Origin: Bacteroidota bacterium | Lineage (GTDB): Bacteria > Bacteroidota > Bacteroidia > Chitinophagales > Saprospiraceae | Reading direction: 5' to 3' | Assembly: GCA_030147525.1 (NCBI GenBank) | Contig: JASBVF010000014.1 | Location: 1 to 64,000, forward strand | Length of the DNA stretch: 64,000 nucleotides | Notes under the pieces: generated by a model | The model's input: the letters and a program-made list of their open reading frames with translations, nothing else | What the model was told of the DNA's origin: nothing | Databases searched by the model: none | Translations under genes and position numbers: made by a program | Shown here: positions 7,501 through 50,469 of the stretch, piece by piece | Layout: the number at the start of each line of letters is the position of its first letter | Position numbering within the stretch: the first letter of the stretch is position 1

Positions 7501-7692
7501 CTCTTTGGCTGGGCCTCAGTGATGATGACTTACTTCGGCGTGAATTATTATCTCTCCGGCCTGCACTCCTACGCTGCCGGCGATCCGGTACCGATTCCGG
7601 ATTGGGTGTACTGGACGGTGGGTGCTTTGACGGTATTGAGTCTGGTGGCGTGGTGGCGGCACCGGGCGTATAAAAATGCGGTCAAGGCGTGA
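4579..7692 (+). CDS. ccsBA: Fused cytochrome c synthase ResB-CcsA (CcsBA, system II)
   Basis: The 1037-aa membrane protein joins a ResB/Ccs1-like half to a CcsA half. The ResB half has helices near residues 15-35, 48-66, 78-98 and 432-455 around a large periplasmic domain. A further hydrophobic segment at about 474-492 precedes a periplasmic stretch. The CcsA helices start near 735 and carry the tryptophan-rich WWD motif WGRYWGWDAKETW (about 931-943), with candidate heme-ligand histidines near 776, 857 and 996. CcsBA exports heme and attaches it to CXXCH motifs in the periplasm. This suits the multiheme cytochrome genes 7-20 kb away on the other strand. Confidence 0.93.
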   Translation: MPQLKKLFFGLFSTSAAGLYIILFAVAIAAATFIENDFGTSAAQKVIFTAKWFELLLVLFGISLIVNIFRFRMVQQKKWALLIFHASMVIIIIGAGVTRYHGSEGMMGIREGSASNSFLSRETYLLFQVQHGGKKYSFDEPVLFASLGDNSLKQSYMIGNQELKVEVLDFIPNPTEVLVDDENGNPILKVVVAGMNGREEFLLEQGDKSNIYGTLFNFGNELNERAFNIKYENDSLWFIAGTPYTQMVMTTQTRDTLAPGIWHPLNLRQMYSDGMRSFVLGAFSPHAVAKVTSLDRKMASNSLGGVWMKVAFGNEEQELLLTGSPGMEGAPRVAQFGPSSVAVSYGAKNIKLPFSIKLNDFIMERYPGTDNASSYASEVTLIDPRENLIRDQRIYMNNILNYDGYRFFQSSFDKDELGTYLSVNHDAPGTLISYLGYALLTLGMIMTFFSKNTRFAQLSKNLKNMRDKPEKVAMAAVTALLLAFSTPAHANHASLPVVNQDHAEAFGQILMQDFQGRIKPLNTFTNEVLRKLSRKETLEGQTSEQVILGMMADPKTWYHVPLIKLGHHEEVRNILGVSGDYATYADFFHQNGEYKLRDAVRNAYNTPQRDRGVFEKEVVKLDERVNICSMVFSGRFMTVFPVPGDTSHHWQSAVPFEPQGHAAFTGSIIEKFYPAYTPVLRSAMQSNDWSLANRMVDELDKYQQKHGGEVLPSESKVNAELFLNELNVFSRLGKLYGLLSLAFLGLLFTSVFKPGLNLKTPMKIAIGILAFGFLMHTLGLGLRWYVAGRAPWSNGYESMIYIGWTTTLAGLIFSRKSFGGLAATTVLAAVILMVAGLSWADPEITPLVPVLKSYWLTIHVSLEAGSYGFLALGAIIGILNLVFMIFANQKNGKNVYRIIKELSYTSELTLIAGLFMISIGTYLGGVWANESWGRYWGWDAKETWALVTILVYAFILHMRFIPGFRGLYAFNVSTLFGWASVMMTYFGVNYYLSGLHSYAAGDPVPIPDWVYWTVGALTVLSLVAWWRHRAYKNAVKA

Positions 7693-11691: not shown

Positions 11692-12109
11692 CGGCAGTAG
11701 ATTTGGAGCAACAATCAAAAGATAAATTCAACGTCGCCCAATCTGCAAGGGCCACTCTCCCGCCGCCAAAAGCAAAAAATAAGGAATGCCTGAAGGTTAC
11801 AGGTTCAGCCCTATTGCAATTGTTTTCAACTGTCGAAATTATTCATTAATCGTTCCCGTGTTTAAAATTGAATCGTGCTGGCGTTTGTAAAATGGGATTG
11901 GAAAATCGGCTGGCTCAAGCAAATGTATTTATAAAAAAGTAAATATTCGCTCATTGAAGCTGTTATTCCTGTTTTGAGAAACAGGAAACTCCTTGTTTGA
12001 ACCCGGTAAAATCAGTTAACGCAAAACCTTATGGAAGACAAAGTTGAATGTATGCTCAAGGCAGGCAAGTTGGCGAGCAGGTGTTGGGTAGAAAAGCATG
12101 TTTATCTAA

Positions 12110-12178: not shown

Positions 12179-12937
12179 TCATTTCACCACTGCCCCTTCC
12201 ACGATGTAATCATACATGTAACCTGCCCCGAAATCCTTGTTCAGTGCCAGGGTTCCTTCCAGGGTGACAACCGAGCCGGACTGCACCTGTTCGGTAGTGG
12301 TGACGGTCAGTTCGAGCTCTTTGCCGGAGCCGTCCTGCAGGTGAATCCAGTTTCTGCCCATGATCATGGCATTTACTTTCATCACCTTGCCGGTGACTTT
12401 GACGGTCTTGCCTTCATATTTTTTCAAATTGGCCACCAGGTCGGCAATTCTGATCGCACCGGGAGCAATGTTGACATTTTGTGGCGGCTCTACGGTGGCC
12501 CCGGTTTTCACCTGGCCGGTTGCAGCAGTCGCAGGTTTTTCACCCCTGAAATCAGAAACGAGGTAGAGTGTTTCAAACACCCGGTTGAACTCCCGGCTTT
12601 GGAAGTTTTTCTTTAAAAGTCCGCCTCTGAAGTAATAGGTACTGCCGGGTTGGATGTCCTGTTTCATCACGGCGACCCAGAACGCTTCGTCATTTTCTTT
12701 TACCCGGAGGTAGGAGTATTTGTCGGTGTTCAGCACTTCCTCCACGACGACTTTCCGTTCGGCGGTATTCATGTCAGCAGTGGGAGCAGCGCCGTCCTGC
12801 ATGCCGGGCATGTCCTGGAAAAGCGGCGGTGCAGTTTCTCCTGTACCGGCTTCGGCTTCTATGACTTTGGGTTCGGAGCCGCATGCGGCAAAAATGATAA
12901 CGAGTAGCACGCCTGTGAATATCTTGATACTTTGCAT
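12179..12937 (-). CDS. Lipoprotein with OB-fold-like domains
   Basis: The 252-aa protein has a lipoprotein signal (LLVIIFAACG, cysteine at residue 19), a low-complexity linker and two beta-rich regions. The first is at about residues 60-135. The second, at about 155-250, has the OB-fold pattern of small secreted proteins, with KYEGKTVKVTGKVMKVN and NWIHLQDGSGKELELTV. No catalytic residues or heme sites are present. It follows the beta-barrel gene on the same strand after 151 bp, so it may be an accessory of the electron-transfer complex. That role is inferred from position only. Confidence 0.75.
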   Translation of the reverse strand: MQSIKIFTGVLLVIIFAACGSEPKVIEAEAGTGETAPPLFQDMPGMQDGAAPTADMNTAERKVVVEEVLNTDKYSYLRVKENDEAFWVAVMKQDIQPGSTYYFRGGLLKKNFQSREFNRVFETLYLVSDFRGEKPATAATGQVKTGATVEPPQNVNIAPGAIRIADLVANLKKYEGKTVKVTGKVMKVNAMIMGRNWIHLQDGSGKELELTVTTTEQVQSGSVVTLEGTLALNKDFGAGYMYDYIVEGAVVK

Positions 12938-13088: not shown

Positions 13089-14717
13089 CTAAAATCTCTG
13101 AATTATTTTGGTATTAAATCGATGGAAAGTATTATTCTGCTTACCAAAGGTCCCTTCATAATACACATGAAAAGCCAGCTTCCGGGTGATGTTGACCGAG
13201 AGGTCCAGCCCGGCGATTTGCTGTTTGATCTGGTTTTCATAATTCCGGTAATTGTAGTTCACCATTCTGAAATAGGCATCGCTGTTCAGCTTGCCGGGAA
13301 TGATTTCCTTTGACAGGCGCAGACCGAAAATCCGGCTGTCGATGTAGTTGGTTTGCAGGAAGTTAGCCGTCAGCGAGGCGGATGCTTTGATGACCGGGAT
13401 GCGGCTGAAGTTGAGGTAGCTGTTCAGGTTTTTTGAAAGGTTGATGTCGCTTTTTTGAAAACGCCAGCTTACGTTGGCGCCCCAGGTGACGAACTTAAAC
13501 GGGCGGTAACTGACATTGAAGCGCAGCCCCTGTCGGGTTTCATCGTCGATGAGCTGGTCGATGTAGCTCTTGTAACTTTCGTAGTAGATGATGTTTTTGC
13601 GGTTGTCGTAAGAGAGTCCGAGGCTGGCTTTTTTCGATAACCTGTACCGGGCGGAGAGGAAGAGGTTGGTCAGGCTCATGGTGTTCTTTGCCTCATTTTG
13701 GATGTTTTCATAAAGGTCAACCTCTGTGGAAGCAAAAATGCTCAGGTTTTTTACGGGCGTGCTGGAATGCTGAAAATACAAAAACCGCCGGTCGGTGCTG
13801 CTTCCGTTGTGTTGCTCCACAAAGGCGAGGGTGCTTTGCAGCAATTTGCCGTTTTTGTTGGAGGCGTGACCGATGTAAGCGCCTGCCTGAAGGAGGTTTA
13901 AGTCGAGACTGTAATCTGCGAAATTGGGGCGTGACCCGGCGATGCCGCCGATGAGAAAATCCCCGAACCCCTTCTCCACCTGCAAGCCGTCGATGGCCCC
14001 CATGCTTGAAATACGCTGGTTGATCTTCCGGCCGAGGGTGATGCTCGATTTTTTGTCGAGGTCGTATTTCACCGCCAGCGAGAAGACTTTCAGCGCATCG
14101 CTGAGGTTGTCCTGCACCTCGTTCCATTCGCCGGCATTGTGCCGAAAGGTGATGTAGTTATCGGTTGAAAAGCGGGAGTTTTTGATGTTGTTGCCCTGCA
14201 GGGTAAAGGCGTATCGCATGCGGTGCAGGGTTTCATCACCGTAAAAATTGCTGTACGAAGCCGCCGACACCCGCCCTCTGATTTTTTGTTTAAAATCAGC
14301 AGCCTGCTTTTCTTCCGTTTCAGGGGTGATCACCAACGGCGTACCGGCCGGCGGAAGACTGTCAAGGGACACGGCCGGCGATGTTGGCTTTTGCTTTTTT
14401 TCCGATTTTTCCGGTGCGACTTTTTGGGGAATGCGGGCAAAAAATTCATCGCCGGCCTGCACTTTCTCCGTCAGCAGCGAAGTACATACCGCCGAAGTGG
14501 AAGATTTGTCCCGCACCAACAGTCCGGGCAGTAATGCGCCTTCTTTTTTTATGAAAAGCGTATCGCCCTTCTCAATGCCTTCCGTCGATGCGAATTTCAC
14601 ATAAACACTCAGCGAAGAGACATACGATGCCTTGCCAGAAAGCAGTACGGTTTCCTTCTGCCCGAACAGGATGGCGGAGCAGAGAAGGAAGGACATAACG
14701 ATGATGAAGTTTCGCAT
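13089..14717 (-). CDS. Outer-membrane beta-barrel protein with N-terminal SH3-like domain
   Basis: The 542-aa protein has a signal peptide (ends AILFGQ), a soluble beta-domain at about residues 24-95 (EGIEKGDTLFIKKEGALLPG), a proline/lysine-rich linker and then, from about 140 to the end, alternating amphipathic strands such as RYRLSKKASLGLSYDNRKN. The final residue is phenylalanine (IIQRF), as is typical of BAM-assembled barrels. There is no CXXCH motif. It lies directly downstream of the 88-heme gene on the same strand. The position suggests a pore through which a multiheme cytochrome contacts the outside, as the MtrB-type barrels do, but I see no sequence similarity to MtrB. Confidence 0.8.
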   Translation of the reverse strand: MRNFIIVMSFLLCSAILFGQKETVLLSGKASYVSSLSVYVKFASTEGIEKGDTLFIKKEGALLPGLLVRDKSSTSAVCTSLLTEKVQAGDEFFARIPQKVAPEKSEKKQKPTSPAVSLDSLPPAGTPLVITPETEEKQAADFKQKIRGRVSAASYSNFYGDETLHRMRYAFTLQGNNIKNSRFSTDNYITFRHNAGEWNEVQDNLSDALKVFSLAVKYDLDKKSSITLGRKINQRISSMGAIDGLQVEKGFGDFLIGGIAGSRPNFADYSLDLNLLQAGAYIGHASNKNGKLLQSTLAFVEQHNGSSTDRRFLYFQHSSTPVKNLSIFASTEVDLYENIQNEAKNTMSLTNLFLSARYRLSKKASLGLSYDNRKNIIYYESYKSYIDQLIDDETRQGLRFNVSYRPFKFVTWGANVSWRFQKSDINLSKNLNSYLNFSRIPVIKASASLTANFLQTNYIDSRIFGLRLSKEIIPGKLNSDAYFRMVNYNYRNYENQIKQQIAGLDLSVNITRKLAFHVYYEGTFGKQNNTFHRFNTKIIQRF

Positions 14718-14981: not shown

Positions 14982-17900
14982 TTAATCCGTCCCCTCCGGA
15001 TGGCAGGCATAACACGCCGTGCTTTCGTACTGATACCCTCCTACCCCCAGATGAAGCTGTGCAGTCTGCACCGGGTCGTCGTGGAAGTGGCAATCAATGC
15101 AGGAGTATTGGGTGAAATTATTCGGTATGGTATGACATTCAACGCACTGGGTCCACTCATCCTTATGTTTCCCGCTGTAAATCGGGAAATACATGGCATC
15201 ATGGTCGAAAGTCGCAGGCGTCCAGGCATTTTCATTGTGACAGGGCGTGCAGTCCGTCGGGAAGCCCGCAGCAGCGTGATTCGGGTTTGTTGCCGAGTTG
15301 TACGCTGACTGGTGGCATCCGTAGCAGGTATTCGGCGTGTTGTTGTAATTGCCGTTGTGGCAAAGCGCACAATCATTGGCGATGGCCGCATGCGCCCCGT
15401 TCAGCTGGTAATAATTGTTGTGAATCGGGAAGGTCGCCGGTTCCCAGTCCGGGTCAGTCGTATGGCACATGGCACAGTCCGTCGGGATGACCAGCGCCAC
15501 GTGGTTCGGGTTCGTACTGCTGCTGTAATCCGGCATGTGGCAGCCCTCGCAGGTATTCGGCGTATTGTTGTAATTGCCTCCTACGTGGCACAGCGCACAG
15601 TCGTTTGACACAGGAATATGCGCCCCGGTGAAGGGGTAGAACACGCTGTGATCGAAAGTTGACGGTATCCAGGCTGTCTCTGTGTGGCAATCCTCGCAGG
15701 TCGTCGGCAACTGGTTAGCCACGTGGTTCGGATTTGTTGCGGCATTGTAATCGGACATGTGGCAGCCGTTACAGGTGTTCGGCGTGTTGTTGTAATTGCC
15801 GTTGTGGCAGGCGGCACAGTCGTTGGCAATGACGGCGTGCGCTCCGTTCAGCTGGTAATAATTGTTGTGAATCGGGAAGGTCGCCGGCTCCCAATTCGGC
15901 GACGTCGTGTGGCATTGCTCACAATCCGTCGGCAGGCCAAGCGATACGTGATTCGGGTTGGTGCTGGCGTTGTAGTCCGGTGTATGACAACCGGCGCAGG
16001 TATTCGGTGTATTGGAATAATTCCCCCCCACGTGGCACAACGTACAGTCATTTGCAATCGGAATATGCGCTCCCGTGAACGGATAGAATGTGCTGTGGTC
16101 AAAGGTCGAAGGCACCCAGGCTGTTTCCGTGTGGCAATCGTCGCAGGTGGTCGGGAAGTTTGCCGTTGAGTGATTTGGGTTTGTCGTGCCGTTGTAATCG
16201 TCGAGGTGGCAGCCCGCACAGGTGTTTGGTGTGCTGTTGTAATTGCCGTTGTGGCATAGCGCACAATCATTGGCAATCGACGCATGCGCCCCGTTGAGCT
16301 GGTAATAATTATTGTGAATCGGGAACGTAGCCGGCTCCCAGTCGGGCGATGTGGTATGGCATTGCTCACAATCCATCGGCAAACCCAGCGCCACGTGATT
16401 CGGGTTAGTACTGGCATTGTAGTCCGGCGTGTGACAACCGGCACAAGTGTTCGGGGTGTTCGAGTAGTTGCCGCCAACGTGGCACAATGCACAGTCATTC
16501 GCTATCGGAATATGCGCCCCGGTGAACGGATAAAATACACTGTGATCAAAAGTAGAGGGAACCCACGCCGTTTCCGTGTGGCAGTCATCGCAGGTGGTCG
16601 GGAAGTTGGCAGCCTGGTGGTCCGGGTTTGTCGTGCCGTTGTAATCGTCGAGGTGGCAGCCCGCACAGGTATTTGGTGTGTTGTTGTAATCTCCGTTGTG
16701 GCAGGCTGCGCAGTCGTTAGCAATCGCCGCATGCGCCCCGTTCAACACATAAAAATCATCGTGAATCGGGAACGTCGCAGGTTCCCAATCCGGCTCAGTC
16801 GTATGGCACATGTCACAGTCCGTTGGAATGCCGAGTGCCACGTGGTTCGGGTTCGTGCTGGCGTTGTAATTCGGCGTATGGCATCCGGCGCAGGTATTCG
16901 GCGTGTTGTTGTAATCGCCATTATGGCAAACAGCGCAATCATTGGCAACAGCCACGTGAGCCCCGGTCAGGGCATAGTAATCGTCATGGATGGGGAAACT
17001 CGCCGGTGCCCAGCCAGGATCAGTCGTGTGACAGCTTGCGCAATCCATCGGAATGCCGAGTGCCACGTGGTTTGGATTGGTGCTGTTGTTAAAATCAGTC
17101 AGGTGACAGGCATCGCAATTCGTCGGCGTACCCTGGTAACCCGCCGAGTGGCAATCAATACAATCCACATTCAGGTGCGCCCCCGTCAGCGGGAAGGCGG
17201 TGTTGTTGTGGTCAAAACCGGTGCCCTCGCCCGTCGGGTGGCAGGCAAGGCAGGCGCTGCTTTCATAAACATATCCGCCAATTCCAGCGTGCAGGTTGTC
17301 CGTTTCCGGATTCACGTGGCAGGTCGTGCAAGTGAATTCCGCAAAATTATTCGGGTTCGTGTGGCAATCCGTACACTCGCTCCACTCGCCGTTGTGCGTG
17401 CCGCTGTAAATCGGAAAATACTGTCCGTCGTGGTCGAAAGTCGAAGGTACCCACGCCGTTTCCGTATGGCAGGTCGTACAATCCGTCGAGAATTGCGCCG
17501 CAGCGTGATTGGGGTTGGTCGTGTTGTTATACTCGGCGGTATGGCAGCCGTAGCAGGTGTTCGGGGTGTTGTTGTAATCCCCATTGTGGCAAGCTGCGCA
17601 GTCGTTGGCAATCGCCGCATGCGCCCCGTTTAATACATAAAAATCATCGTGAATCGGGAAGCTCGCTGGCTCCCAATCCGGGTCGGTCGTGTGGCACATC
17701 GCACAGTCGTTCGGCAGGTTCAATGCCACGTGATTCGGGTTTTGGCTTTGGTTAAAATTGGGTGTGTGACAGCCTGCACACTCGTTGGGTGTGGTCGAAT
17801 AATTTCCACCCACATGGCACGTCGCACAGTCGTTTGCCACTGGAATATGCGCCCCCGTGAACGGATAAACCGCACTGTGGTCAAAAGTCGAAGGCACCCA

Positions 17901-20900
17901 CGCTGTTTCACTGTGACAATCTTGACAAGTTGTGGGTAATTGGTTCGCCGAATGGTTTGGATCGGCGGCAGCGTTGTAGTCCGCAGTGTGACAGCCGTTG
18001 CAGGTATTCGGGGTGTTGTTGTAATCGCCGTTGTGGCAGGTCGCACAGTCGTTAGCGATGGCGGCATGCGCCCCGTTTAACGCATAAAAATCATCGTGAA
18101 TCGGGAACGCCGCAGGCTCCCAACCGGGGTCAGTGGTGTGGCAGCTTGCGCAATCTGCCGGCAGGTTCAGCGCCACGTGGTTGGGGTTTTGACTTTGGTT
18201 AAAATCCGTCTGGTGACATGCCGAACACTCCGTCGGCGTTCCCTGATACCCCGCAGAGTGACAGTCCAGACAAACCGCCCCCAAGTGCGCCCCCGTCAGC
18301 GGGAATGCTGTGGTGTTGTGATCAAAAATATTCGTTGCATCCCCCGTCGGGTGGCAGGCAAGGCAGGCCGGGCTGTTGTAAGAATAGCCGCCCACACTCA
18401 CGTGCTGGTCGTCCGTTTGCGGGTTGGCGTGGCAGGTGATACAGTTTACATCCGCATAGTTCGCCGGGTTGGAGTGGCAGTCAATGCACTCCGACCACTC
18501 GCCCTCGTGCCCTCCGCTGTAAATCGGGAAAAACTGCGAATCATGGTCGAAAGTCGAAGGCACCCACGCCGTCTCACCGTGGCAATCCGTGCAATTTGTC
18601 GGGAACTGCGCCGCCTGGTGATTCGGGTTCGTCGTCGCATTGTACTCCGCCGAGTGACAGCCGAAGCAGGTATTCGGCGTGTTGTTGTAGTCGCCGTTGT
18701 GGCAGGTGGCGCAGTCGTTGGCGATGGCAGCATGCGCCCCGTTTAATACATAAAAATCATCGTGCAGCGGGAACGCCGCCGGTTGCCAGTCGGGCTGCAT
18801 GGTGTGGCACATGGCGCAATCCGTGGGCAGGTTCAGGGCCACGTGATTCGGGTTTTGACTTTGGTTAAAATCGGGCGTGTGGCAGCCCGCACATTCGTTG
18901 GGTGTGGTCGTGTAATTGCCGTTCACGTGGCACAGCGCACACTCGTTCGCCACCGCCACGTGCGCCCCGGTGAAGGGGTAAACAGCAGCATGGTCGAACG
19001 TCGAAGGCACCCACGAAGTCTCCGAGTGGCAGGTTGTGCAGTCGTTCGGGAACTGGTTCGCCGAGTGGTTCGGGTCGGTCGCCGCATTGAAATCGGCGGT
19101 GTGACAGCCCATGCAGGTGTTCGGTGTGCTGTTGTAGTCGCCGTTGTGGCAGGTGGCGCAGTCGTTTGAAATACTGGCATGCGCCCCGTTTAACACATAA
19201 TAATCATTGTGAATCGGAAACTGCGCAGGCGCCCAGCCGGGGTCGGTCGTGTGGCAGCTTGCACAGTCCATCGGGATGTTCAGCGCCACGTGGTTGGGGT
19301 TTTGACTTTGGTTAAAATCGGTGGTGTGGCAGGCGGCACAGTCCGTCGGCGTATTTTGAAAACCGCCGGCGTGACAGTCCAGACAGACCGCCCCGAGGTG
19401 CGCCCCCGTCAGCGGGAACGCTGTGGTATTGTGGTCAAAAATATTCGTCGCATCACCCGTCGGGTGGCAGGCGAGGCAGGCATCACTTTGGTAAACGTAG
19501 CCCCCGACACCGGCGTGGTCGTTGCTCGTCTGCGGGTCGGCGTGGCATGTGGTGCAGGTAAATTCGGCGTAGTTGCCGGGGTTCGTGTGGCAGTCCGTGC
19601 AGGCGTCCCACTCGCCGTTGTGCGCACCGCTGTAAATCGGGAAATGCTGCGCATCGTGGTCGAAAGTAGCGGGCGACCACGTCGTTTCCGTGTGACAACC
19701 CGTGCAATCCTGCGAGAAATTGAGTGCCACGTGGTTCGGCGTCACGGTGGCGTTGTAGTCGGCCGAGTGGCAGCCGAAACAGGTATTCGGCGTGTTGTTG
19801 TAGTCGCCGTTGTGGCAGGCAGCGCAGTCGTTGGCAATCACTGCATGCGCCCCGTTTAACACATAAAAATCGTCGTGAATCGGGAACTGTGCTGGCGCCC
19901 AATCGGGGTCGGTGGTGTGGCACATGGCGCAGTCGTTCGGCAGGTTCAGCGCCACGTGGTTGGGGTTTTGACTTTGGTTAAAATCGGGCGTATGGCAGCC
20001 CGCACAGGTGTTCGGCGTGGTTGAATAATTGCCGTTCACGTGGCACAGCGCACAGTCGTTGGCCACCGGCACGTGCGCCCCGGTGAAGGGATAAACGGCG
20101 TCGTGGTCGAAGGTCGAAGGCACCCAAGCCGTCTCCGAGTGGCAGGTCGTGCAGTCGTCGGGGAACTGGTTCACCACGTGGTTCGGGTCCGCCGCCGCAT
20201 TGAAATCGGCGGTGTGGCAGCCCATGCAGGTATTCGGCGTGATGTTGTAATCCCCGTTGTGGCAGGCAGCGCAGTCGTGCGAAATGTCTGCATGCGCGCC
20301 GTTTAACGCATAAAAATCATTGTGAACGTCGAAAGTAGCGGGCGCCCAGCCGGGATCGGTCGTATGGCAGCTTGCGCAATCATTCGACAGCGCCAGATTC
20401 ACGTGGTTGGGGTTGGTCGTTTCATTAAAATCCTGCGTGTGGCACGCTGCACATTCGGTGGGCGTACCGGCGTAGCCGTTGGCGTGGCACTCGATGCAAT
20501 CCGTTGTGATGTGCGCTCCCGTCAACGGGAAGTTGCTGGCGTCATGGTCAAAACTGTCGTCCACATCACCCGTCGGGTGGCAGGCAAGGCAGGCAGAATT
20601 TTCATAAACGTACCCCGCCACGGTCGTGTGCCCGTCGTCCGTTTCCGGGTTCAGGTGGCAGACGATGCAGCTGTTCGAGGCGTAGTTATTCGGGTCGGTG
20701 TGGCACTCGGCGCACTGGTTCCAGGCGCCCTGGTGCTTGCCGCTGTAAATGGGAAAATACTGCCCGTCGTGCGCCGTGAACTGCGCCGGCATCCATTCCG
20801 GGTCGGTCGTGTGACATTGGGCGCAGTCGTTGGTGAAACCAGCCGTGACGTGGTTCGGATTGAGCGTATTTTCAAAATCCGGCTGATGGCAGGCGAAGCA

Positions 20901-21644
20901 GTTGTTTGGTGTGTTGGCAAAATCCCCCCCGGCGTGGCAGGCGGCGCAGTCTGTTATTTCATGCCCTTTCGTCAAAGGGAAAAACGAGTGGTCCACCTTG
21001 TCGGTGTTCCAGTCGGCGGTGAATGGGTCGTGACATTCGAGGCAATCGGTGGAGAAGCCCGCTTGCTTGTGATTCGGGTTTGTCGAGGCGTTGAAATCGC
21101 TAAGGTGGCAGCTCACGCAATCGTTGCCGATGCGGTCGAAGCGCAGCTCAGTTTCGGAAGTGTGACAGTCCGTACAGTTCAACGACGTGTGGACGCCCGT
21201 GAGCGGGAAGCCATTGTCAACGTGCAACTGTTGAATATCATCGATTAACCAGTGATTGGTCGTGTGGCAGCGGGCGCAGTCGTTCCCGACGGTCATCTGG
21301 TGGATGTCGGTGTGGCAGGAGATACAGTCGGAGCTGGTATTTTCAAAAACCAGCGTCTCGTGGCAGTCCCGGCAGTCTGTCACGGCGTGACGGCCTTTCA
21401 GTGGAAAATCAGTGGACTTGTTGTGGCTGAAAAATACGGTGTCGGAAGTAATCGGCATGCCCGTTGACTTGGAGACCCGTGGCTTGCGGGGTTCGTGGTC
21501 ACGCCAGAAGTCGCTGGGAATTTCCCACCCGGCAGGGGAGTGGCAGGATGCACAATCGATTTTGAGGGCAGCGCCGTGCGGATTCTGCGAAAGGAGGTTC
21601 GTAGAAAACCAAAAGAGAAGCAAAATGGATGTTGCTTGGCGCAT
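14982..21644 (-). CDS. Giant multiheme c-type cytochrome (~88 CXXCH, 2220 aa)
   Basis: The protein starts with a Sec signal (ILLLFWFSTNLLSQ) and is then filled with CXXCH motifs. I counted 88 by eye, about one per 25 residues. Typical modules are NDCAACHNGDYNNTPNTC and ETAWVPSTFDH followed by YPFTGAH, where the extra histidines could be the second axial heme ligands. The first ten and last three hemes align with the 13-heme neighbour at 21910-22974. The middle (residues about 315-2172) is five units of about 371 residues with 15 hemes each. There is no T9SS sorting domain, membrane helix or lipobox. It should be a periplasmic or extracellular electron conductor or store. The barrel gene follows after 264 bp. 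Confidence 0.93.
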   Translation of the reverse strand: MRQATSILLLFWFSTNLLSQNPHGAALKIDCASCHSPAGWEIPSDFWRDHEPRKPRVSKSTGMPITSDTVFFSHNKSTDFPLKGRHAVTDCRDCHETLVFENTSSDCISCHTDIHQMTVGNDCARCHTTNHWLIDDIQQLHVDNGFPLTGVHTSLNCTDCHTSETELRFDRIGNDCVSCHLSDFNASTNPNHKQAGFSTDCLECHDPFTADWNTDKVDHSFFPLTKGHEITDCAACHAGGDFANTPNNCFACHQPDFENTLNPNHVTAGFTNDCAQCHTTDPEWMPAQFTAHDGQYFPIYSGKHQGAWNQCAECHTDPNNYASNSCIVCHLNPETDDGHTTVAGYVYENSACLACHPTGDVDDSFDHDASNFPLTGAHITTDCIECHANGYAGTPTECAACHTQDFNETTNPNHVNLALSNDCASCHTTDPGWAPATFDVHNDFYALNGAHADISHDCAACHNGDYNITPNTCMGCHTADFNAAADPNHVVNQFPDDCTTCHSETAWVPSTFDHDAVYPFTGAHVPVANDCALCHVNGNYSTTPNTCAGCHTPDFNQSQNPNHVALNLPNDCAMCHTTDPDWAPAQFPIHDDFYVLNGAHAVIANDCAACHNGDYNNTPNTCFGCHSADYNATVTPNHVALNFSQDCTGCHTETTWSPATFDHDAQHFPIYSGAHNGEWDACTDCHTNPGNYAEFTCTTCHADPQTSNDHAGVGGYVYQSDACLACHPTGDATNIFDHNTTAFPLTGAHLGAVCLDCHAGGFQNTPTDCAACHTTDFNQSQNPNHVALNIPMDCASCHTTDPGWAPAQFPIHNDYYVLNGAHASISNDCATCHNGDYNSTPNTCMGCHTADFNAATDPNHSANQFPNDCTTCHSETSWVPSTFDHAAVYPFTGAHVAVANECALCHVNGNYTTTPNECAGCHTPDFNQSQNPNHVALNLPTDCAMCHTMQPDWQPAAFPLHDDFYVLNGAHAAIANDCATCHNGDYNNTPNTCFGCHSAEYNATTNPNHQAAQFPTNCTDCHGETAWVPSTFDHDSQFFPIYSGGHEGEWSECIDCHSNPANYADVNCITCHANPQTDDQHVSVGGYSYNSPACLACHPTGDATNIFDHNTTAFPLTGAHLGAVCLDCHSAGYQGTPTECSACHQTDFNQSQNPNHVALNLPADCASCHTTDPGWEPAAFPIHDDFYALNGAHAAIANDCATCHNGDYNNTPNTCNGCHTADYNAAADPNHSANQLPTTCQDCHSETAWVPSTFDHSAVYPFTGAHIPVANDCATCHVGGNYSTTPNECAGCHTPNFNQSQNPNHVALNLPNDCAMCHTTDPDWEPASFPIHDDFYVLNGAHAAIANDCAACHNGDYNNTPNTCYGCHTAEYNNTTNPNHAAAQFSTDCTTCHTETAWVPSTFDHDGQYFPIYSGTHNGEWSECTDCHTNPNNFAEFTCTTCHVNPETDNLHAGIGGYVYESSACLACHPTGEGTGFDHNNTAFPLTGAHLNVDCIDCHSAGYQGTPTNCDACHLTDFNNSTNPNHVALGIPMDCASCHTTDPGWAPASFPIHDDYYALTGAHVAVANDCAVCHNGDYNNTPNTCAGCHTPNYNASTNPNHVALGIPTDCDMCHTTEPDWEPATFPIHDDFYVLNGAHAAIANDCAACHNGDYNNTPNTCAGCHLDDYNGTTNPDHQAANFPTTCDDCHTETAWVPSTFDHSVFYPFTGAHIPIANDCALCHVGGNYSNTPNTCAGCHTPDYNASTNPNHVALGLPMDCEQCHTTSPDWEPATFPIHNNYYQLNGAHASIANDCALCHNGNYNSTPNTCAGCHLDDYNGTTNPNHSTANFPTTCDDCHTETAWVPSTFDHSTFYPFTGAHIPIANDCTLCHVGGNYSNTPNTCAGCHTPDYNASTNPNHVSLGLPTDCEQCHTTSPNWEPATFPIHNNYYQLNGAHAVIANDCAACHNGNYNNTPNTCNGCHMSDYNAATNPNHVANQLPTTCEDCHTETAWIPSTFDHSVFYPFTGAHIPVSNDCALCHVGGNYNNTPNTCEGCHMPDYSSSTNPNHVALVIPTDCAMCHTTDPDWEPATFPIHNNYYQLNGAHAAIANDCALCHNGNYNNTPNTCYGCHQSAYNSATNPNHAAAGFPTDCTPCHNENAWTPATFDHDAMYFPIYSGKHKDEWTQCVECHTIPNNFTQYSCIDCHFHDDPVQTAQLHLGVGGYQYESTACYACHPEGTD
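15131..20715 (-). repeat. Five tandem ~1113-bp super-repeats inside the giant cytochrome gene
   Basis: The motif opening each unit (CTDCH- or CAECH-type after GEW or similar) recurs near 20700, 19588, 18475 and 17362, spaced about 1113 bp, and again near 15131, two unit lengths further on. Each unit codes about 371 residues with 15 CXXCH sites, arranged as 3 + 2 + 3 + 3 + 3 + 1. The last two units have been partly remodelled into near-identical six-heme blocks (around 15500-16700). The repeats stay in frame throughout. Confidence 0.85.
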
Positions 21645-21909: not shown

Positions 21910-22974
21910 TCACTCATCCCCTTTCGGATGGCACTCATAACAAGCCTGGCTCACATACTGGTACCCTGAGACATCATCGTGCTCCTTTGCAAGGTCTTGC
22001 GGATCGTTGTGCTCATGGCAATCGATGCAACTGAAAGCCTTGAAATTCCCCGGTGTTGTGTGACACTCGCTACATTCGTTCCATTCTCCGTTGTGTTTTC
22101 CGCTAAAAATGGGGAAGTACTGCTGGTCATGCTGTTTAAAATCGGTCGCCTGCCAACCCGGACCGGTGGTGTGGCAAAGATTACAGTCCGTGGGAAAGCC
22201 TGCTGCCTGGTGGTTGGGGCTGGTAGTTGCTGCGTAATCATCCTGATGGCAGGCAAAGCAATCAGTTGGCGTGTTGGAGAAATTCCCGTTGGTATGACAA
22301 GCTGCGCAATCATTAATCTGATGCCCACCGGTCAAAGGAAAGAATAGATGATTGGCTCCGCCAATTTCCCAAAGCCAACTTAACCCCGTCATATCGTGGC
22401 ACATCACGCAATCTGTAGAAAACCCGGAAGCTGTGTGATCCGGCATGGTCGTCGCCCGATATTCATCCAAATGGCACTCTAAACACTCGTTACCGATGCG
22501 GTCGAAGCGCAGATCTGTTTCCGAAGTATGGCAGTCCCGGCAATCGGCGATAGCGTGATTACCGAGCAGCGGAAATCCGTTATCTACGTGCAGTTGGGTG
22601 ATGTTATCCACCAGCCAGTGCTGCGTACTGTGGCAGCGGGCGCAGTCATCGCCCACAGTCATCTGGTGCAGGTCGGTGTGGCAGGAAATGCAGGCAGGCT
22701 GGGCTTGCTGAAAAACGAGCGTTTCGTGGCAATCCCGGCAATCGATCTGGTTGTGCCTGCCCGTTAGTTCAAAGTTTGTCTGATCATGACTGAAAGGATT
22801 TTCAAGACTGGGGTTGACCATCTCGCCGTTTTCCCAATACTGCGAAGCAATAGCCCAACCCTCCGGAGAATGGCAAGATGCACAGTCGATTTTGAGGGCA
22901 GGGGTATGAGGGTTCTGCGCAAATGAAGTTGCGGAGCAACAAAGGAAAATCAGGATGGATCTTAAATTTTTCAA
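21910..22974 (-). CDS. Multiheme c-type cytochrome (13 CXXCH)
   Basis: The start chosen is TTG at 22974, 14 bases after the previous stop codon. It gives a clean signal peptide (residue 2 onward KNLRSILIFLCCSATSFAQ). The frame is open further back to 23049, but that would overlap the previous gene. The 354-aa product has 13 CXXCH sites. It shares its beginning (ALKIDCASCHS, DCRDCHETLVF, HQMTVG, LHVDNGFPL) and its end (SCIDCH, GYQY, ACYECHPKG) with the giant 88-heme protein and so is its compact paralogue. A periplasmic electron carrier is the likely role. Confidence 0.9.
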   Translation of the reverse strand: MKNLRSILIFLCCSATSFAQNPHTPALKIDCASCHSPEGWAIASQYWENGEMVNPSLENPFSHDQTNFELTGRHNQIDCRDCHETLVFQQAQPACISCHTDLHQMTVGDDCARCHSTQHWLVDNITQLHVDNGFPLLGNHAIADCRDCHTSETDLRFDRIGNECLECHLDEYRATTMPDHTASGFSTDCVMCHDMTGLSWLWEIGGANHLFFPLTGGHQINDCAACHTNGNFSNTPTDCFACHQDDYAATTSPNHQAAGFPTDCNLCHTTGPGWQATDFKQHDQQYFPIFSGKHNGEWNECSECHTTPGNFKAFSCIDCHEHNDPQDLAKEHDDVSGYQYVSQACYECHPKGDE

Positions 22975-22987
22975 AACAAGAAATTTG

Positions 22988-24811
22988 TTACTGATGACAA
23001 TCCACGCATTCAAACCTTTCAATCCGGTACTGTACCACCGCCGCTCCATCCATCAGCACCGGACGGTGGCAGCGATCACAGGCCACTTCGGCATGTTTAC
23101 CCTCTAACTTGAAGCGGGTTTTATTATGGTCAAAATCCGTGAGCGACCAGCCCTCAAAATGGTGGCAGCGGGCGCAGTCCGTAACGCCGGCTTTTTCAAA
23201 CTGATTACCATGTACATTGTCATGGCAGGCGGCACACTCGGTTGAAACCCCGGTAAACTTACCCTGCGGATGGTCCTCATCCCGCACATGACAGGCCCGG
23301 CAGTCAACTTCGGCGTGTTTTCCGAGCAGTTGGAAAGTCGTTTTGGAATGATCAAATTGGTTGACACCGGTCCAGCTTTCGGTCAGGTGGCATTTTTTGC
23401 AGGCTTGATTAGGGTACCATTTAGAGGCAATTTCACCTTTGTGAAAATCGTCATGACAATCCACACAACGCTCCCCGATGTTGCGAAATTGCCATTTCTC
23501 AGCTCCGTCGGGCAAATGACACGCAAAACACGGTGTCGCAACGTGCCCGCCATCCAGCGGAAATTTGGTTTTATTGTGCTGCGCAATGCTGAACGTGCTC
23601 CCTTCAAATCCATCTACCGTGTGGCACTCCGCACAGTCTGGCGACCGGGAATTGGTGACAAACTGCCCTTCGTGATAATCGGAATGGCAGGTGGCACAAG
23701 TGTTGTGTGGTAGCGGCTCGGTCAAGCTCTCGGAGACGTGACATTTGCGGCAATCCACTACCTCGTGTTTTCCCTCGAGGGCAAAGCCAGTCAAGTCATG
23801 GTTGAAACCTTCCATTTTTCCGACCTGCCGGAAGGAGTTTTCATTGTGACAATCAACGCAGTTGTTGCCAAATTTACCTTCATGGACATCTTTGTGACAG
23901 GTAGCACAGTCTTGCGTTTTTACCCCGAGCCGATCCTGAAAAACAGTCAGCGGTGTGGCGGGTAATTGGTGGCATTCTTTGCAATCCACCCGCTGGTGGC
24001 GGCCTTTGAGCGGGAAGCCCGTGCCGTTGTGGTTGAACCTGCCGAGACTTGCAGTGGAGGTGAAAGACTGTTCGTTGTGGCACTGCTTGCAGTTTGGCCC
24101 CAGATTATTGTTGTGAGCATCCTTGTGGCAGTCCGTACAGTTTCCGAAAGGCACACCTGCAAATCGCTGAAACTCTTTGCCGTTGCGGATTTCCGTCTGG
24201 TGACAATCCTTGCAATCCACTGTTTTGTGTTTGCCTTCGAGAGCAAATTTCGTGTTGCCGTGGTTAAATTTGGTGGCAGGACGAAACTCATCCGTCGAGT
24301 GGCATTTGGCACAGTCGTTCGAGAGGGTTTTCTGGTGAAAATCTTCGTGACAATCGAGACATTTTTGCCCGAGCCCGAGAAAAGTTTCTTTCCTTTTTTT
24401 CAAATCCCAATCGCTCACGTTGTCGGGTTTGTGGCAGTCCCGGCAATCAATTTTTTTGTGGGCTCCGGTTAGTTCGTAACCTGTGAGGTTGTGGTTGAAC
24501 GTTTTTTCATCAAAACGCACCATATCGAAATTGCGACCGTGGTGGTCGCTGTGGCAACTGGCACATTCCTTTCCCCGCACCTCTTTCGAACTGTGATAAC
24601 CCTGCCGCCGATCCAGTCGTGACTTGATTTCCTTGTGGCAAGCCAGGCACTTGTCGTTAGACACTTTTTCACCCAACACATGGCACTGGGTGCAATTGGA
24701 AATACCCTCTAGTTCGGCATGTGCGCCGGAGAGATCGCCAGGGGAAAGCTGGGCGAAGGTGCTGCCGGTGAGGAGGCAGATAAAAAGAATATGGAAGATT
24801 TTTGGCTGCAA
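22988..24811 (-). CDS. Multiheme c-type cytochrome (23 CXXCH)
   Basis: This 607-aa protein has a signal peptide (FICLLTGSTFAQ) and 23 CXXCH motifs counted by eye. Between them recurs the module FNHNGTGFPLKGRH followed by VDCKECH, in which the added histidines suit bis-histidine heme ligation as in cytochrome c3/c7-like proteins. It is more lysine-rich than the two downstream cytochromes. The gene precedes the 13-heme gene by 13 bases and follows the iron-sulfur/FAD gene after 190 bp, so it is the likely first periplasmic acceptor. The last CXXCH is almost at the C-terminus (CVDCHQ). Confidence 0.92.
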   Translation of the reverse strand: MQPKIFHILFICLLTGSTFAQLSPGDLSGAHAELEGISNCTQCHVLGEKVSNDKCLACHKEIKSRLDRRQGYHSSKEVRGKECASCHSDHHGRNFDMVRFDEKTFNHNLTGYELTGAHKKIDCRDCHKPDNVSDWDLKKRKETFLGLGQKCLDCHEDFHQKTLSNDCAKCHSTDEFRPATKFNHGNTKFALEGKHKTVDCKDCHQTEIRNGKEFQRFAGVPFGNCTDCHKDAHNNNLGPNCKQCHNEQSFTSTASLGRFNHNGTGFPLKGRHQRVDCKECHQLPATPLTVFQDRLGVKTQDCATCHKDVHEGKFGNNCVDCHNENSFRQVGKMEGFNHDLTGFALEGKHEVVDCRKCHVSESLTEPLPHNTCATCHSDYHEGQFVTNSRSPDCAECHTVDGFEGSTFSIAQHNKTKFPLDGGHVATPCFACHLPDGAEKWQFRNIGERCVDCHDDFHKGEIASKWYPNQACKKCHLTESWTGVNQFDHSKTTFQLLGKHAEVDCRACHVRDEDHPQGKFTGVSTECAACHDNVHGNQFEKAGVTDCARCHHFEGWSLTDFDHNKTRFKLEGKHAEVACDRCHRPVLMDGAAVVQYRIERFECVDCHQ

Positions 24812-25001: not shown

Positions 25002-26333
25002 CTACCTGTGCTTCTTCATCGTATATCCAAACCGCTTGTTAATCTCCACGCCCGCTTTCTCCAAAAACTTTGTGGGTAGTTCACCGCCGGCGAAAATGTA
25101 AACCAGATCGTTGGGCAGCGCTTCCTGGCCACCGGTTTCTTTGAGTGCAAGCACAGCGAGTTCTCGTTCTATCTTTACGAGGTTTGAATTTAATTTCACG
25201 TCAAGAATGCCTTTTTCAATGGCCTCATTGAGCTTTTCCCGGTTTTTGGGTTTCACCCGGCTGAAAGCATCCCCACGGTAACTGAGAATAACAGAGTTCT
25301 GCTCTGCCAGCGACAGTGCCGCTTCGATGGCAGAATCGCCGCCGCCCACGACCACCACATTCTTTTCGCTGATCAATTCAGGTTCCAGCAGACGGTAAGC
25401 TACTTTTTCGAGCTCTTCGCCCGGTACGCCCAGCTTGCGGGGAGTACCTCGCCGGCCGATGGCAAGCAATACCCGGCGGGCCAGAATTTCATCGCCCTGG
25501 TTGGTAACGACGCTGAAATGATTGTTCTCCGAAAGAATGCTTTCCACCTTTGTTCGTTCCCGGATACTGATACCATTTTTTGATAAAGCCTCCTGCCAGA
25601 GTGTTAAAAGTTCTGCTTTGCTGGTGTCGAAAAGTTTGACTTTTCCGTAAAGCGGCAGGTCCATTGGTGCGGTCATGACCACTTTCGAGCGGGGGAAATT
25701 ATACACCGTGCCGCCGAGGGAGTCCTGGTCCAGCGTCTGGAAACTGAGCCCGTGTTTTTTGGCAGTCAGTGATGCGGAAATGCCTGCAGGGCCTGCACCA
25801 ACGATGACCAGATCGAGGATGCCGTTGCTTTCTTTTTTAGCTAATGATTTGGCAATGTAATCGACTGCCTGCTGACCTTGTTCTACGCTGTTTTTGATCA
25901 AACCCATACCGCCTAACTCACCGGCGATAAAAATCCCGGGCACGTTGGTCTCAAAATTTTCACTGACATGCGGCAGGTCCACGCCCCGTTTTTCCGTACC
26001 GATTACCAGGGTAATCGCCTCAACCGGACAGGCATGAAAACATGCACCATGGCCCACGCATTCTGCTGCATTGATCAGGGTCGCTCTTCCATTCACGATG
26101 CCGATGATATCTTTTTCCGGACAGGCTTCCATACAGGCGCCGCTTTTGATACAAGTCCCCATGTCAATGACCGGGTGAAGGGAGACCGGCTCGTGCATGC
26201 CTTCCTCTTTCGCTTTTTCTATTTTGGCTTGTGTGGCTTCCGAAGTCTTTTTTTGTTTTTTCAGATAAACCCAAACCACTGCGAAGCAAAGCAGGAAAAC
26301 TGAACCGTAAATGATGATTTGCTCTAGTAACAT
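25002..26333 (-). CDS. Membrane-anchored iron-sulfur/FAD NAD(P)-type oxidoreductase
   Basis: The 443-aa protein has one N-terminal membrane helix (residues 5-24) followed by lysines, placing the rest in the cytoplasm. Two ferredoxin-like motifs follow (C61, C67, C71 and C92, C98, C102, each ending CP). The usual second cysteine is Ser64 and His95 respectively. A thioredoxin-reductase-like fold then has GAGPAG at 179-184 for FAD and GGGDSA near 330 for NAD(P). The redox CXXC of true thioredoxin reductases is absent. The gene starts 21 bp after the cytochrome b-like gene. Its likely role is to pass electrons from NAD(P)H or ferredoxin into the membrane, or the reverse. Confidence 0.85.
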   Translation of the reverse strand: MLLEQIIIYGSVFLLCFAVVWVYLKKQKKTSEATQAKIEKAKEEGMHEPVSLHPVIDMGTCIKSGACMEACPEKDIIGIVNGRATLINAAECVGHGACFHACPVEAITLVIGTEKRGVDLPHVSENFETNVPGIFIAGELGGMGLIKNSVEQGQQAVDYIAKSLAKKESNGILDLVIVGAGPAGISASLTAKKHGLSFQTLDQDSLGGTVYNFPRSKVVMTAPMDLPLYGKVKLFDTSKAELLTLWQEALSKNGISIRERTKVESILSENNHFSVVTNQGDEILARRVLLAIGRRGTPRKLGVPGEELEKVAYRLLEPELISEKNVVVVGGGDSAIEAALSLAEQNSVILSYRGDAFSRVKPKNREKLNEAIEKGILDVKLNSNLVKIERELAVLALKETGGQEALPNDLVYIFAGGELPTKFLEKAGVEINKRFGYTMKKHR

Positions 26334-26354: not shown

Positions 26355-27227
26355 TCAAAAAATCCAACGGTACCCGAACACCAGCGTCACTGCAACATGT
26401 ATGACCATGATGATCAGCATGATGAGTGCAAAAGGCAGGTGTGCGACGTGCCAGTACTTGAAAAGTCTCTGCATGGTTTCCAGTCGTTCAATCCGGTTGT
26501 TCAGAGATAGCTCATGTTTGACCATCTTAGCGACCTTATGCACATCAGGTCTTGAAAAATTGTTCTGACGGAGCGTTTGTTTCACCTGCCGGATGGTGCT
26601 TTTATCCTGAAAATATTTTTGCACCATTCGGGTGAAAAAATTACCTCCGGTCCGTTCTCCGCTGACGTTTGCTGCCGATAAAACAGCCTGATAGCTTGCA
26701 TCGTCCAGTTGGTAGGAACCTTTCAGCAACTCGCCCAGGTCGGCCTTCATTCCTTTTACTTCACCCAGGCTCAACTCCCGCCCTTCGATGGTACGGGGGA
26801 TCTGGATATAAATAAACCGGCCGATTACCCCGCTCGCCACCACCGCCACCATGCTCCAAAAACTTACGGAAACGATGCCGCCGAACTTGAACGCTGTGTG
26901 AAACAGAATCATTGTCGGCCCAAGTGTGCATAAGAAAATATGAAACTCCAGCCAGTATTTGAGGCGTCCAAAACGAGTGGCAAGCCAGCGGTTTTTCTTC
27001 TTGGCCTGGTAGCCGAACACCCCAACCAGGATCAGCAGCGTTCCGACAATCCCCAGTCCGTGGCCAAAAGCCCCACTGGGTTTAAACCAGTCATGGTCAG
27101 CATGATAAAACCGCTCTTCAATGGGTGTGCTGTAGTAAGGAATGCCTTTAATCAAAAGGAATAAAAATGTAAACACAACGATACTGGTAAGCGTAAAGAT
27201 ATAAATGCGATGAGCCAGTGGAGACAT
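26355..27227 (-). CDS. Diheme cytochrome b-like membrane protein
   Basis: This is a 290-aa protein with about five hydrophobic segments. His96 and His110 lie on one helix and His263 and His277 on the last helix. Each pair is 14 residues apart, the spacing by which diheme cytochromes b hold one heme near each membrane face. His56 and His260 are further candidates. A charged cytoplasmic loop spans about 145-250. The frame extends to a GTG at 27263, but the ATG at 27227 lies better, downstream of a promoter-like sequence. It is first in the cluster, and the iron-sulfur/FAD gene follows at once. It probably moves electrons across the inner membrane. Confidence 0.8.
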   Translation of the reverse strand: MSPLAHRIYIFTLTSIVVFTFLFLLIKGIPYYSTPIEERFYHADHDWFKPSGAFGHGLGIVGTLLILVGVFGYQAKKKNRWLATRFGRLKYWLEFHIFLCTLGPTMILFHTAFKFGGIVSVSFWSMVAVVASGVIGRFIYIQIPRTIEGRELSLGEVKGMKADLGELLKGSYQLDDASYQAVLSAANVSGERTGGNFFTRMVQKYFQDKSTIRQVKQTLRQNNFSRPDVHKVAKMVKHELSLNNRIERLETMQRLFKYWHVAHLPFALIMLIIMVIHVAVTLVFGYRWIF

Positions 27228-27261
27228 GATTTCTGTTTCAAGATATTTTATGAAAACCGGC

Positions 27262-27293
27262 ACAATATAAACATTCTGCCTGTTTATGCAAAA
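27262..27293 (-). promoter_or_regulatory. Promoter candidate for the electron-transfer cluster
   Basis: On the minus strand TTTTG (27293-27289) and TATATTGT (27269-27262) are 19 bases apart, close to the TTTG/TAnnTTTG arrangement of Bacteroidota. Transcription would begin near 27255 and leave a short leader before the ATG at 27227. The -7 box is not a perfect match. Confidence 0.4.
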
Positions 27294-49866: not shown

Positions 49867-50132
49867 TGTGTCGATAATTATGCTTTGTTCGAAAACCGAA
49901 AACTGAAATTGCTGAAAAATTGGACGCACAGGCCTGAAATCTTTCAGTTTTATAATTTCAATTGTTCCGGGTTTGATTTTCTGTTTGAACTTTTTGAATT
50001 GGCCGGCAAATTTAGCAGAATGCTGATCTTTCCGGCAGAATGTTCCATCGTTTGACAGCTGCATGGCAGTTGTTTCAAACAATGGTACGCAAAACGAGGG
50101 TGAGGTGTCTTTTATTGCTAATTCGGACGCTG

Positions 50133-50140
50133 CAAAAGTA
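50133..50140 (-). promoter_or_regulatory. Candidate -7 element for the SprB-repeat gene
   Basis: TACTTTTG on the minus strand fits TAnnTTTG and would give a leader of about 260 bases to the ATG at 49866. No convincing -33 box is present. The rest of the 744-bp divergent gap (49867-50610) contains no supported gene. Confidence 0.3.
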
Positions 50141-50469
50141 GTCTCAAAAAGCGGGATAGCCATCCTATCCATTAACTTTTGTTTCGATTTGTAAAATATC
50201 CGCCATGACAAAAAGGCTTTGTTATGATGATTATTTCAAATATCAAGCCTAAAAATGGCTGATTTTACATTGAAGCTCATTTTAAGCCTGTCACACTTTC
50301 TTTCATTATTTGCTTTCCCGGGCCGTTTTCAGGTGTATTTATTGAAATAAGGCCGGGGAGGTCGCCCGCTTATATGTTATTTCACAAAAATACCACTTGG
50401 TTTTAACAGGAAAATGCCATTTTTTCCATTAAAATTTGATGAAAATTCAAATAAAAACGGGTTTACCGA

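Follow-up and report, generated by a model that had tools for sequence, protein, structure and literature searches.

Why a bacterium should devote 6.6 kb to a single cytochrome, and what such a protein might do, is the question raised by the window, a stretch of 64,000 nucleotides from a genome of the Bacteroidota family Saprospiraceae. An earlier note on this DNA had described an intact frame of 2220 aa with about 88 CXXCH motifs. The frame indeed opens with ATG and runs to one terminal stop, and the computed count was exactly 88. The other five frames of the same stretch contained none, and 2000 residue-shuffled versions of the protein gave a mean of 1.1 and a maximum of 7. All 176 cysteines lie within the motifs and none outside, and the 93 non-motif histidines provide a potential distal histidine for each of the 88 hemes. 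The match to Pfam Cytochrome_C7 (PF14522) reached E 1.2e-93 and 307.4 bits (cut-off, 24.8); the giant belongs with the cytochrome c7/c3-like proteins, far over the Pfam cut-off. Its N-terminus reads like a signal peptide on inspection, and neither a membrane segment (Kyte-Doolittle scan at 1.6) nor a lipobox or a sorting-domain-like C-terminus (inspection of the sequence) was seen, in agreement with the signal peptide and the lack of a membrane or sorting domain claimed earlier. The chain stops five residues past its last CXXCH. Once an assumed signal peptide of 19 residues is subtracted, the calculated mass is 238 kDa for the apoprotein and 292 kDa with 88 hemes, and the calculated pI is 4.8.

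The giant gene does not stand alone, which the earlier note had overlooked, as it had the 3n+1 rule and the near-fixed partner described below. In 5' to 3' order on the minus strand, the operon consists of the genes for a 302-aa membrane protein, a 443-aa flavoprotein, a 23-heme cytochrome, a 13-heme cytochrome, the giant, a barrel and a lipoprotein. These and two further features are as follows.

26355..27263, minus strand: diheme-b-like membrane protein, 302 aa, assigned from its histidine pairs
25002..26333, minus strand: membrane-anchored FAD/NAD(P)-type oxidoreductase with a two-cluster ferredoxin-like domain, 443 aa, assigned from Pfam and fold matches
22988..24811, minus strand: 23-heme cytochrome, 607 aa, the conserved partner, from motif count, alignment and profile
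21910..23049, minus strand: 13-heme paralogue of the giant, 379 aa, from motif count
14982..21644, minus strand: giant terminal cytochrome, 2220 aa, 88 CXXCH, from motif count and Pfam
15275..16919, minus strand: tandem array in the giant gene, 447-bp (149-aa, six-heme) repeats, 3.7 copies, 79% matches
13089..14717, minus strand: outer-membrane beta-barrel, 542 aa, from the predicted structure
12179..12937, minus strand: lipoprotein, 252 aa, lipobox-like Cys19, from alignment
4579..7692, plus strand: CcsBA-type (ResB + CcsA) cytochrome c maturation protein, 1037 aa, near the operon

It could be argued that the giant gene is an assembly artefact in which repeats were multiplied, a suspicion already raised in the earlier note, or a decaying repeat gene that is no longer selected. 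Its sequence does consist of repeats, the genome assembly is still a draft in 59 contigs, and the contigs of relatives frequently stop inside the gene. However, the longest exact repeat within it is 48 bp, below the usual short-read length, and the differences between its modules are mostly synonymous, which together make an assembly artefact very unlikely. The modules at hemes 68 and 74, for example, are 95% identical as protein, yet 71% of their synonymous sites have changed. The median dN/dS among the modules was 0.14 (of 77 pairs of modules equal in length, the 61 whose dS was finite were used, and these are not independent of one another); the modules are old and maintained by purifying selection. 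Five relatives in single-contig genomes have 22, 43, 28, 34 and 37 hemes, all of which fit the 3n+1 rule described below. We give almost no credence to an artefact or to decay. As read from its sequence, the giant is an intact, selected and very heme-dense cytochrome, its heme count being a count of motifs.

In its sequence anatomy, the giant is built of one lead heme and 29 triheme modules of about 75 aa. The modules are 70-79 aa long, except for the first one at 92 aa, and their usual inter-heme spacings are near 31-37, 15-16 and 25-26. Modules of a YSGxH type comprise hemes 11-13, 26-28, 41-43, 56-58 and 86-88; they recur at intervals of 15 hemes, the last interval being 30, and the final one closes the protein. 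The 15-heme unit of which the earlier note spoke was real as a period, and appears as 371-aa blocks (hemes 14-28, 29-43 and 44-58) that are 75-81% identical. However, it is a higher-order period, and we rejected it as the basic repeat because it equals five triheme modules in the giant and the YSGxH spacing differs among relatives; the basic brick has three hemes. The 447-bp tandem array is located in the last block. Two simpler generalizations about the array hold in part only. A YSGxH end cap is not universal, since the literal pattern was present in the last module of 63 of 76 complete terminal proteins and missing there from 13, although in all proteins having YSGxH, except that of locus L116, its heme numbers keep one triheme register. 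Simple concerted evolution was the other: compared with three relatives, 14, 22 and 19 of the 29 modules of the window protein were nearest to a module of their own protein, and its end modules pair with those of the relatives by position.

Among the relatives, length nearly always varies in steps of this same brick. Among 59 distinct complete terminal cytochromes directly before a barrel, a tally that leaves out the window protein, 58 had 3n+1 hemes, in a range from 13 to 94. A second tally with slightly different filters, which covered all loci and included the window, gave 74 of 76 complete terminal cytochromes beside the barrel, with a range from 10 to 94. Its exceptions were L116, with 42 hemes and spacings consistent with the loss of one motif, and L108, in which the cytochrome adjoining the barrel is the 23-heme partner itself. 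In a later set (L166-L195), all 17 proteins counted were 3n+1. The tally of 59 also leaves out 20 complete cytochromes with no barrel next to them in the fetched stretch, ten of which are 13-heme paralogues; 15 of the 20 were 3n+1 and five were not (12, 15, 39, 18 and 35 hemes), and among the latter the 39/18 pair of L105 and the 12-heme protein of L066 resemble fragments of genes that have been split. Taken nominally, 58 of 59 at 3n+1 has a binomial probability of 8e-27, but because the sequences are related, the number of changes on the tree is a fairer measure. On the operon tree of 59 tips, there were at least 37 changes of heme number. In Arenibacter, loci L153 and L141 have almost no branch between them, yet their proteins have 25 and 16 hemes. 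In contrast with the terminal range of 10 to 94, the partner had 23 or 20 hemes in 71 of 76 cases. We regard this contrast as the most telling clue to how the system may work: the partner seems to be distance-limited, and the terminal cytochrome does not.

The distribution of the operon is patchy. At E 1e-60, 43 of 199 genomes of the same family had the flavoprotein, and at E 1e-100 so did 9 of 395 genomes of the same class and 35 of 395 of the same phylum, the own genome being included each time. From the 42 other genomes of the family with the flavoprotein, 40 stretches were fetched as the family set. A 23-heme-type homologue lay downstream of the flavoprotein in 39 of these 40 loci (in L050 it lies behind a 16-heme gene), the b-type gene was present in 38, and an intact gene with exactly 23 motifs in 35. 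A genome scan with the 23-heme alignment matched at least 586 stretches, of which at least 536 were relatives, and the best 80 loci were kept; the flavoprotein was present in 78 of these 80, an intact 23-motif gene in 77 and the b-type gene in 76. The two sets share genomes, and identical proteins occur in both. Homologues labelled as the 13-heme paralogue were fewer (8/40 family loci and 10/80 best genome-scan loci).

The tallies downstream were framed to avoid selecting on the barrel. At loci with at least 9 kb in hand past an intact 23-heme gene, a gene of at least ten hemes and a barrel both followed in 13 of 13 family loci and 41 of 42 genome-scan loci, the exception being L120. Where a complete terminal gene had at least 2 kb behind it, a barrel lay within 1.5 kb in 17 of 17 cases in the family and 43 of 45 in the genome scan, both exceptions being in L105. 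Most of the missing operon genes coincide with contig ends. L120 has the b-type, flavoprotein and 23-heme genes with no large cytochrome or barrel homologue in the 10 kb downstream, L082 likewise has neither in its downstream stretch, which is shorter than 10 kb, and L111 has the 23-heme gene, but its 10 kb of upstream sequence contain neither the flavoprotein nor the b-type gene. In other classes of the phylum, the partner had 20 hemes in 7 of 10 loci, while the other three had 16, 19 and a split 5+14. Ten loci of a more distant lineage have the flavoprotein after the barrel rather than before the cytochromes, and in 2 of the 10 the barrel was unrecognised by similarity. Among the named hosts are Phaeodactylibacter xiamenensis (82 hemes in strain KD52), Aequorivita antarctica (22 hemes in strain SW49), Ulvibacter antarcticus, Arenibacter, Maribacter, Yeosuana marina and Lacihabitans. 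Judged from these alignments and gene orders, the giant is the length-variable member of a conserved operon with relatives across the phylum Bacteroidota. A survey of 445 unassigned genes in the fetched flanks of the best 80 genome-scan loci gave no extra conserved partner, such as a terminal reductase, and the best other family occurred in 6 of the 80.

The remaining products of the operon suggest what it may be for. In the 302-aa membrane protein, His108/122 and His275/289, each pair 14 residues apart, are kept in 97-98 of 98 sequences, and from these two conserved pairs two b hemes are predicted; no Pfam family scored over its own cut-off. The 443-aa flavoprotein has one N-terminal membrane segment followed by the ferredoxin-like domain and a flavin/NAD(P)-type domain, and a positive stretch after the membrane segment suggests that the catalytic domain is cytoplasmic. 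Its flavin part is similar to YpdA, thioredoxin reductases and ferredoxin-NADP reductases, but there is no cysteine past residue 102, so that it is not a disulfide reductase of this type. In the 23-heme cytochrome, all 23 motifs and 24 non-motif histidines are invariant among 20 aligned sequences. The 13-heme paralogue shares its start and end layout with the giant, of which it looks like a short version. The barrel model (mean pLDDT 81) shows an N-terminal beta domain and 22 predicted strands by manual count from the listed elements. Among the 50 Foldseek matches listed for it were generic porins, exporters and pilus ushers, and none named MtrB; Pfam gave no match at E 0.001 and, when loosened, only DUF4447 at E 0.08. 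Cys19 of the lipoprotein is conserved in at least 97% of 54 sequences, and the protein has weak OB-fold matches.

Multiheme cytochromes and an outer-membrane barrel in one gene set are also found in MtrCAB and other porin-cytochrome conduits. Unlike in these conduits, the barrel here has no Pfam family over the cut-off, the entry is a flavin/FeS and b-type pair, and the length of the terminal cytochrome varies widely. The MtrC/MtrF domain II/IV model PF22113 scored 135.7 bits for the giant and 32.9 for the 23-heme protein (cut-off, 30), which is weak evidence because many heme repeats can sum to such scores. With the DmsE/MtrA-type decaheme model TIGR03508 they scored 44.9 and 43.6 bits, below the cut-off of 192.2, and the giant also remained below the cut-offs of NCBIfam HmcA (50 bits against 400) and of TIGR04257 for triheme-domain nanowires (36.3 bits against 40). 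As a single sequence, the giant had no match in PDB at E 0.001. A profile of its first 28 hemes best matched, among solved structures, the sixteen-heme cytochrome 1z1n (E 2.3e-11), which we take to be HmcA. For the profile of the 23-heme partner, the top solved structure was 3ov0 (E 4.6e-10), which was also a weak match of the giant's profile (E 0.0084).

Structure 3ov0 is the dodecaheme 'nanowire' GSU1996 of Geobacter sulfurreducens, a periplasmic protein that resembles the giant in having tandem triheme domains in one chain. GSU1996 has four such domains, each with one His-Met heme (PMC10138318), whereas the terminal family ranges from 10 to 94 hemes and appears not to share this arrangement. 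The hemes of GSU1996 lie 3-5 Å apart, edge to edge (PMC10138318), well inside the tunnelling limit of about 14 Å. All 963 modules of the 76 terminal proteins have at least three non-motif histidines, and in all 76 the number of such histidines is at least the heme number; methionine is absent altogether from 529 of the 963 modules.

Proteins of this size have been reported before. A report of 2024 (PMC11495043) presents giant multiheme proteins, mainly from Saprospiraceae of activated sludge; the top count there, 112, comes from an Acidobacteriota genome, and some Bacteroidota exceed 100 motifs. They share their family, Saprospiraceae, and their protein class with the giant; we found no gene context, module anatomy, operon or heme-number rule in that report. 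A 113-heme protein from Methanoperedenaceae (PMC7327174) and the large ANME cytochromes (PMC9012536) likewise carry very many hemes per chain. However, these proteins are archaeal, and the large ANME types contain S-layer, peptidase-like or pectin-lyase-like domains (PMC9012536), none of which was found in the giant by Pfam. With published counts of 112 and 113, and relatives of the giant gene that reach 91 and 94 hemes, the giant is not a record, and the suggestion that it would carry more heme iron than almost any known polypeptide is not supported. Another study, a scan of about 60,000 genomes, speaks of neighbourhoods where the motifs exceed one hundred (PMC11475568), and the variation of heme number among homologous cytochromes has been called an unexplored area (PMC7399161). 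In these sources, giant multiheme cytochromes have mostly been catalogued by motif count. Our searches of the texts of published, open-licence articles gave no earlier description of the operon or the 3n+1 rule. The giant itself is a known kind of protein, and what is apparently undescribed is a widespread operon with a modular length rule.

On balance, we lean towards the reading that, in a conserved Bacteroidota conduit for electrons across the cell envelope, the giant is the terminal heme wire and the part whose length varies. We infer an order and direction of flow in which the motifs would be loaded with heme and cytoplasmic NAD(P)H, the presumed donor, would feed the FAD and then the two iron-sulfur sites in the 443-aa flavoprotein. 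The electrons would then pass to the two b hemes of the 302-aa membrane protein and on to the near-fixed 23-heme cytochrome, which may serve as the periplasmic span. From there they would enter the 88-heme cytochrome, probably located at the outer membrane in association with the 22-strand barrel and the lipoprotein, and leave it for an external acceptor, which might be a mineral, humic matter, another cell or a diffusible oxidant. The length of the wire would change through gain or loss of whole triheme cassettes. Counting against this reading are the patchy occurrence of the operon, the deviating loci L082, L108, L111 and L120, the lack of an MtrB among the barrel matches listed, the poor structural model described next and the heme-copper oxidase hits in the own genome. 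The AlphaFold model of the giant's first 28 hemes, made without hemes, was poor (pLDDT 60.5, pTM 0.28), and this poor model had no match in PDB below E 0.001. The 12-heme GSU1996 is about 12 nm long. By this measure, 88 hemes in line would span about 90 nm, more than a periplasm, so that the giant may fold back, lie along the membrane or extend outside.

The earlier note had offered a molecular wire or an electron store, and this class of function seems reasonable and fits the operon. As a store, the giant would be a periplasmic capacitor that buffers fluctuations of oxygen, with the barrel helping to assemble or anchor it. For such proteins, a role in electron transfer or as a capacitor-like store has been put forward speculatively (PMC11495043), and the giant, with 88 one-electron sites per chain and no sorting domain or lipid anchor seen, could fill this role; its free length beside a near-fixed 23-heme partner is also what is expected of a tank. 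However, a store alone would not need the barrel gene that follows complete terminal cytochromes so regularly (17 of 17 and 43 of 45), and whole triheme cassettes between conserved ends suit a continuous wire at least equally. We consider the store rather unlikely. Alternatively, the operon may supply reductant for chemistry at the surface, for instance to reduce ferric complexes during iron uptake or surface proteins that have become oxidised. The operon occurs in aerobic genera, which suits a non-respiratory task, and judging from the fold matches the entry is apparently NAD(P)H rather than quinol. Yet no receptor, siderophore or repair enzyme was conserved in the fetched flanks, and this explanation is less probable still than a store.

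The conduit might also run inward and carry electrons from Fe(II), sulfur compounds or partner cells to NAD(P)H. The parts of the operon are presumably reversible, and no feature of their sequences seems to fix the direction. However, neither an external donor oxidase nor a carbon-fixation gene was conserved in the fetched flanks, and many of the hosts are heterotrophic isolates. Inward flow thus appears decidedly improbable, more so than surface chemistry, and the outward conduit is the reading we prefer. A bolder version of the outward conduit is possible but doubtful: an ancestral locus of the Bacteroidota may have built wires of 10-94 hemes by whole cassettes between conserved ends, with a partner mostly of 20 or 23 hemes, and the long forms may protrude from the outer membrane and allow bacteria that are mostly aerobic and are not known to reduce metals to exchange electrons with their environment.

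One gene in a constant place of the operon, with 10 to 94 hemes beside a near-fixed partner, amounts to a natural length series, in which it could be asked how the rate, reach and capacity of a heme wire scale with heme number, and what limits them. The operon further hints that extracellular electron transfer may occur in cultured, named Bacteroidota such as Aequorivita, Arenibacter, Ulvibacter and Phaeodactylibacter; to our knowledge, these are not standard electroactive organisms. The genome of the window has three heme-copper oxidase hits, so that its host can probably use oxygen and external respiration is not obviously needed. A homologue of the CcsBA-type maturation protein near the operon was present in 10 of the 40 family stretches and in 39 of the best 80 genome-scan stretches.

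The gene order differed in a distant lineage belonging to other classes (loci L186-L195), in which the b-type gene is followed by a 20- or 23-heme cytochrome, the terminal cytochrome and the barrel gene, and the flavoprotein gene is placed at the end of the set. The terminal cytochromes of this lineage contained 10-64 hemes.

In L105, from a Saprospiraceae MAG, the terminal gene encoded 22 hemes, and a second large cytochrome lay beyond the barrel gene. It was read as two frames, one of 39 hemes and one of 18, which are perhaps one split gene. The counterpart of the 23-heme partner was also found in two frames in L139 (12 and 11 hemes) and L184 (5 and 14 hemes), resulting from either a broken gene or a sequencing error. 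L120 and L082 had the b-type, flavoprotein and 23-heme genes, and no homologue of the large cytochrome or the barrel was found in their available downstream stretch; either the system exists here in a shorter form or these genes were lost.

The flavoprotein, a 443-aa oxidoreductase, has two iron-sulfur motifs:

25002-26333 (gene), minus strand: iron-sulfur motif region at residues 61-102

The second cysteine that is usual in such motifs is missing from both. Across the 102 sequences compared, position 64 was serine in 95 and cysteine in two, and position 95 was histidine in all 102. It is possible that the clusters are three-iron or histidine-ligated.

Other genes in the window were as follows:

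10333-11718, minus strand: 461-aa protein containing a single CXXCH and weakly matching cytochrome P460
32922-38786, plus strand: very large secreted-looking protein with a C-terminal PNxFSPNGDGxND stretch
45280-50211, minus strand: very large secreted-looking protein, same C-terminal stretch
58675-62448, plus strand: very large secreted-looking protein, same C-terminal stretch

The P460 match (E 0.0012) was below the cut-off, and no homologue of the 461-aa protein was flagged in the 40 same-family loci on both strands or, on the same strand only, in the best 80 genome-scan loci. The stretch common to the three very large proteins is typical of gliding or type IX-secreted proteins of Bacteroidota.
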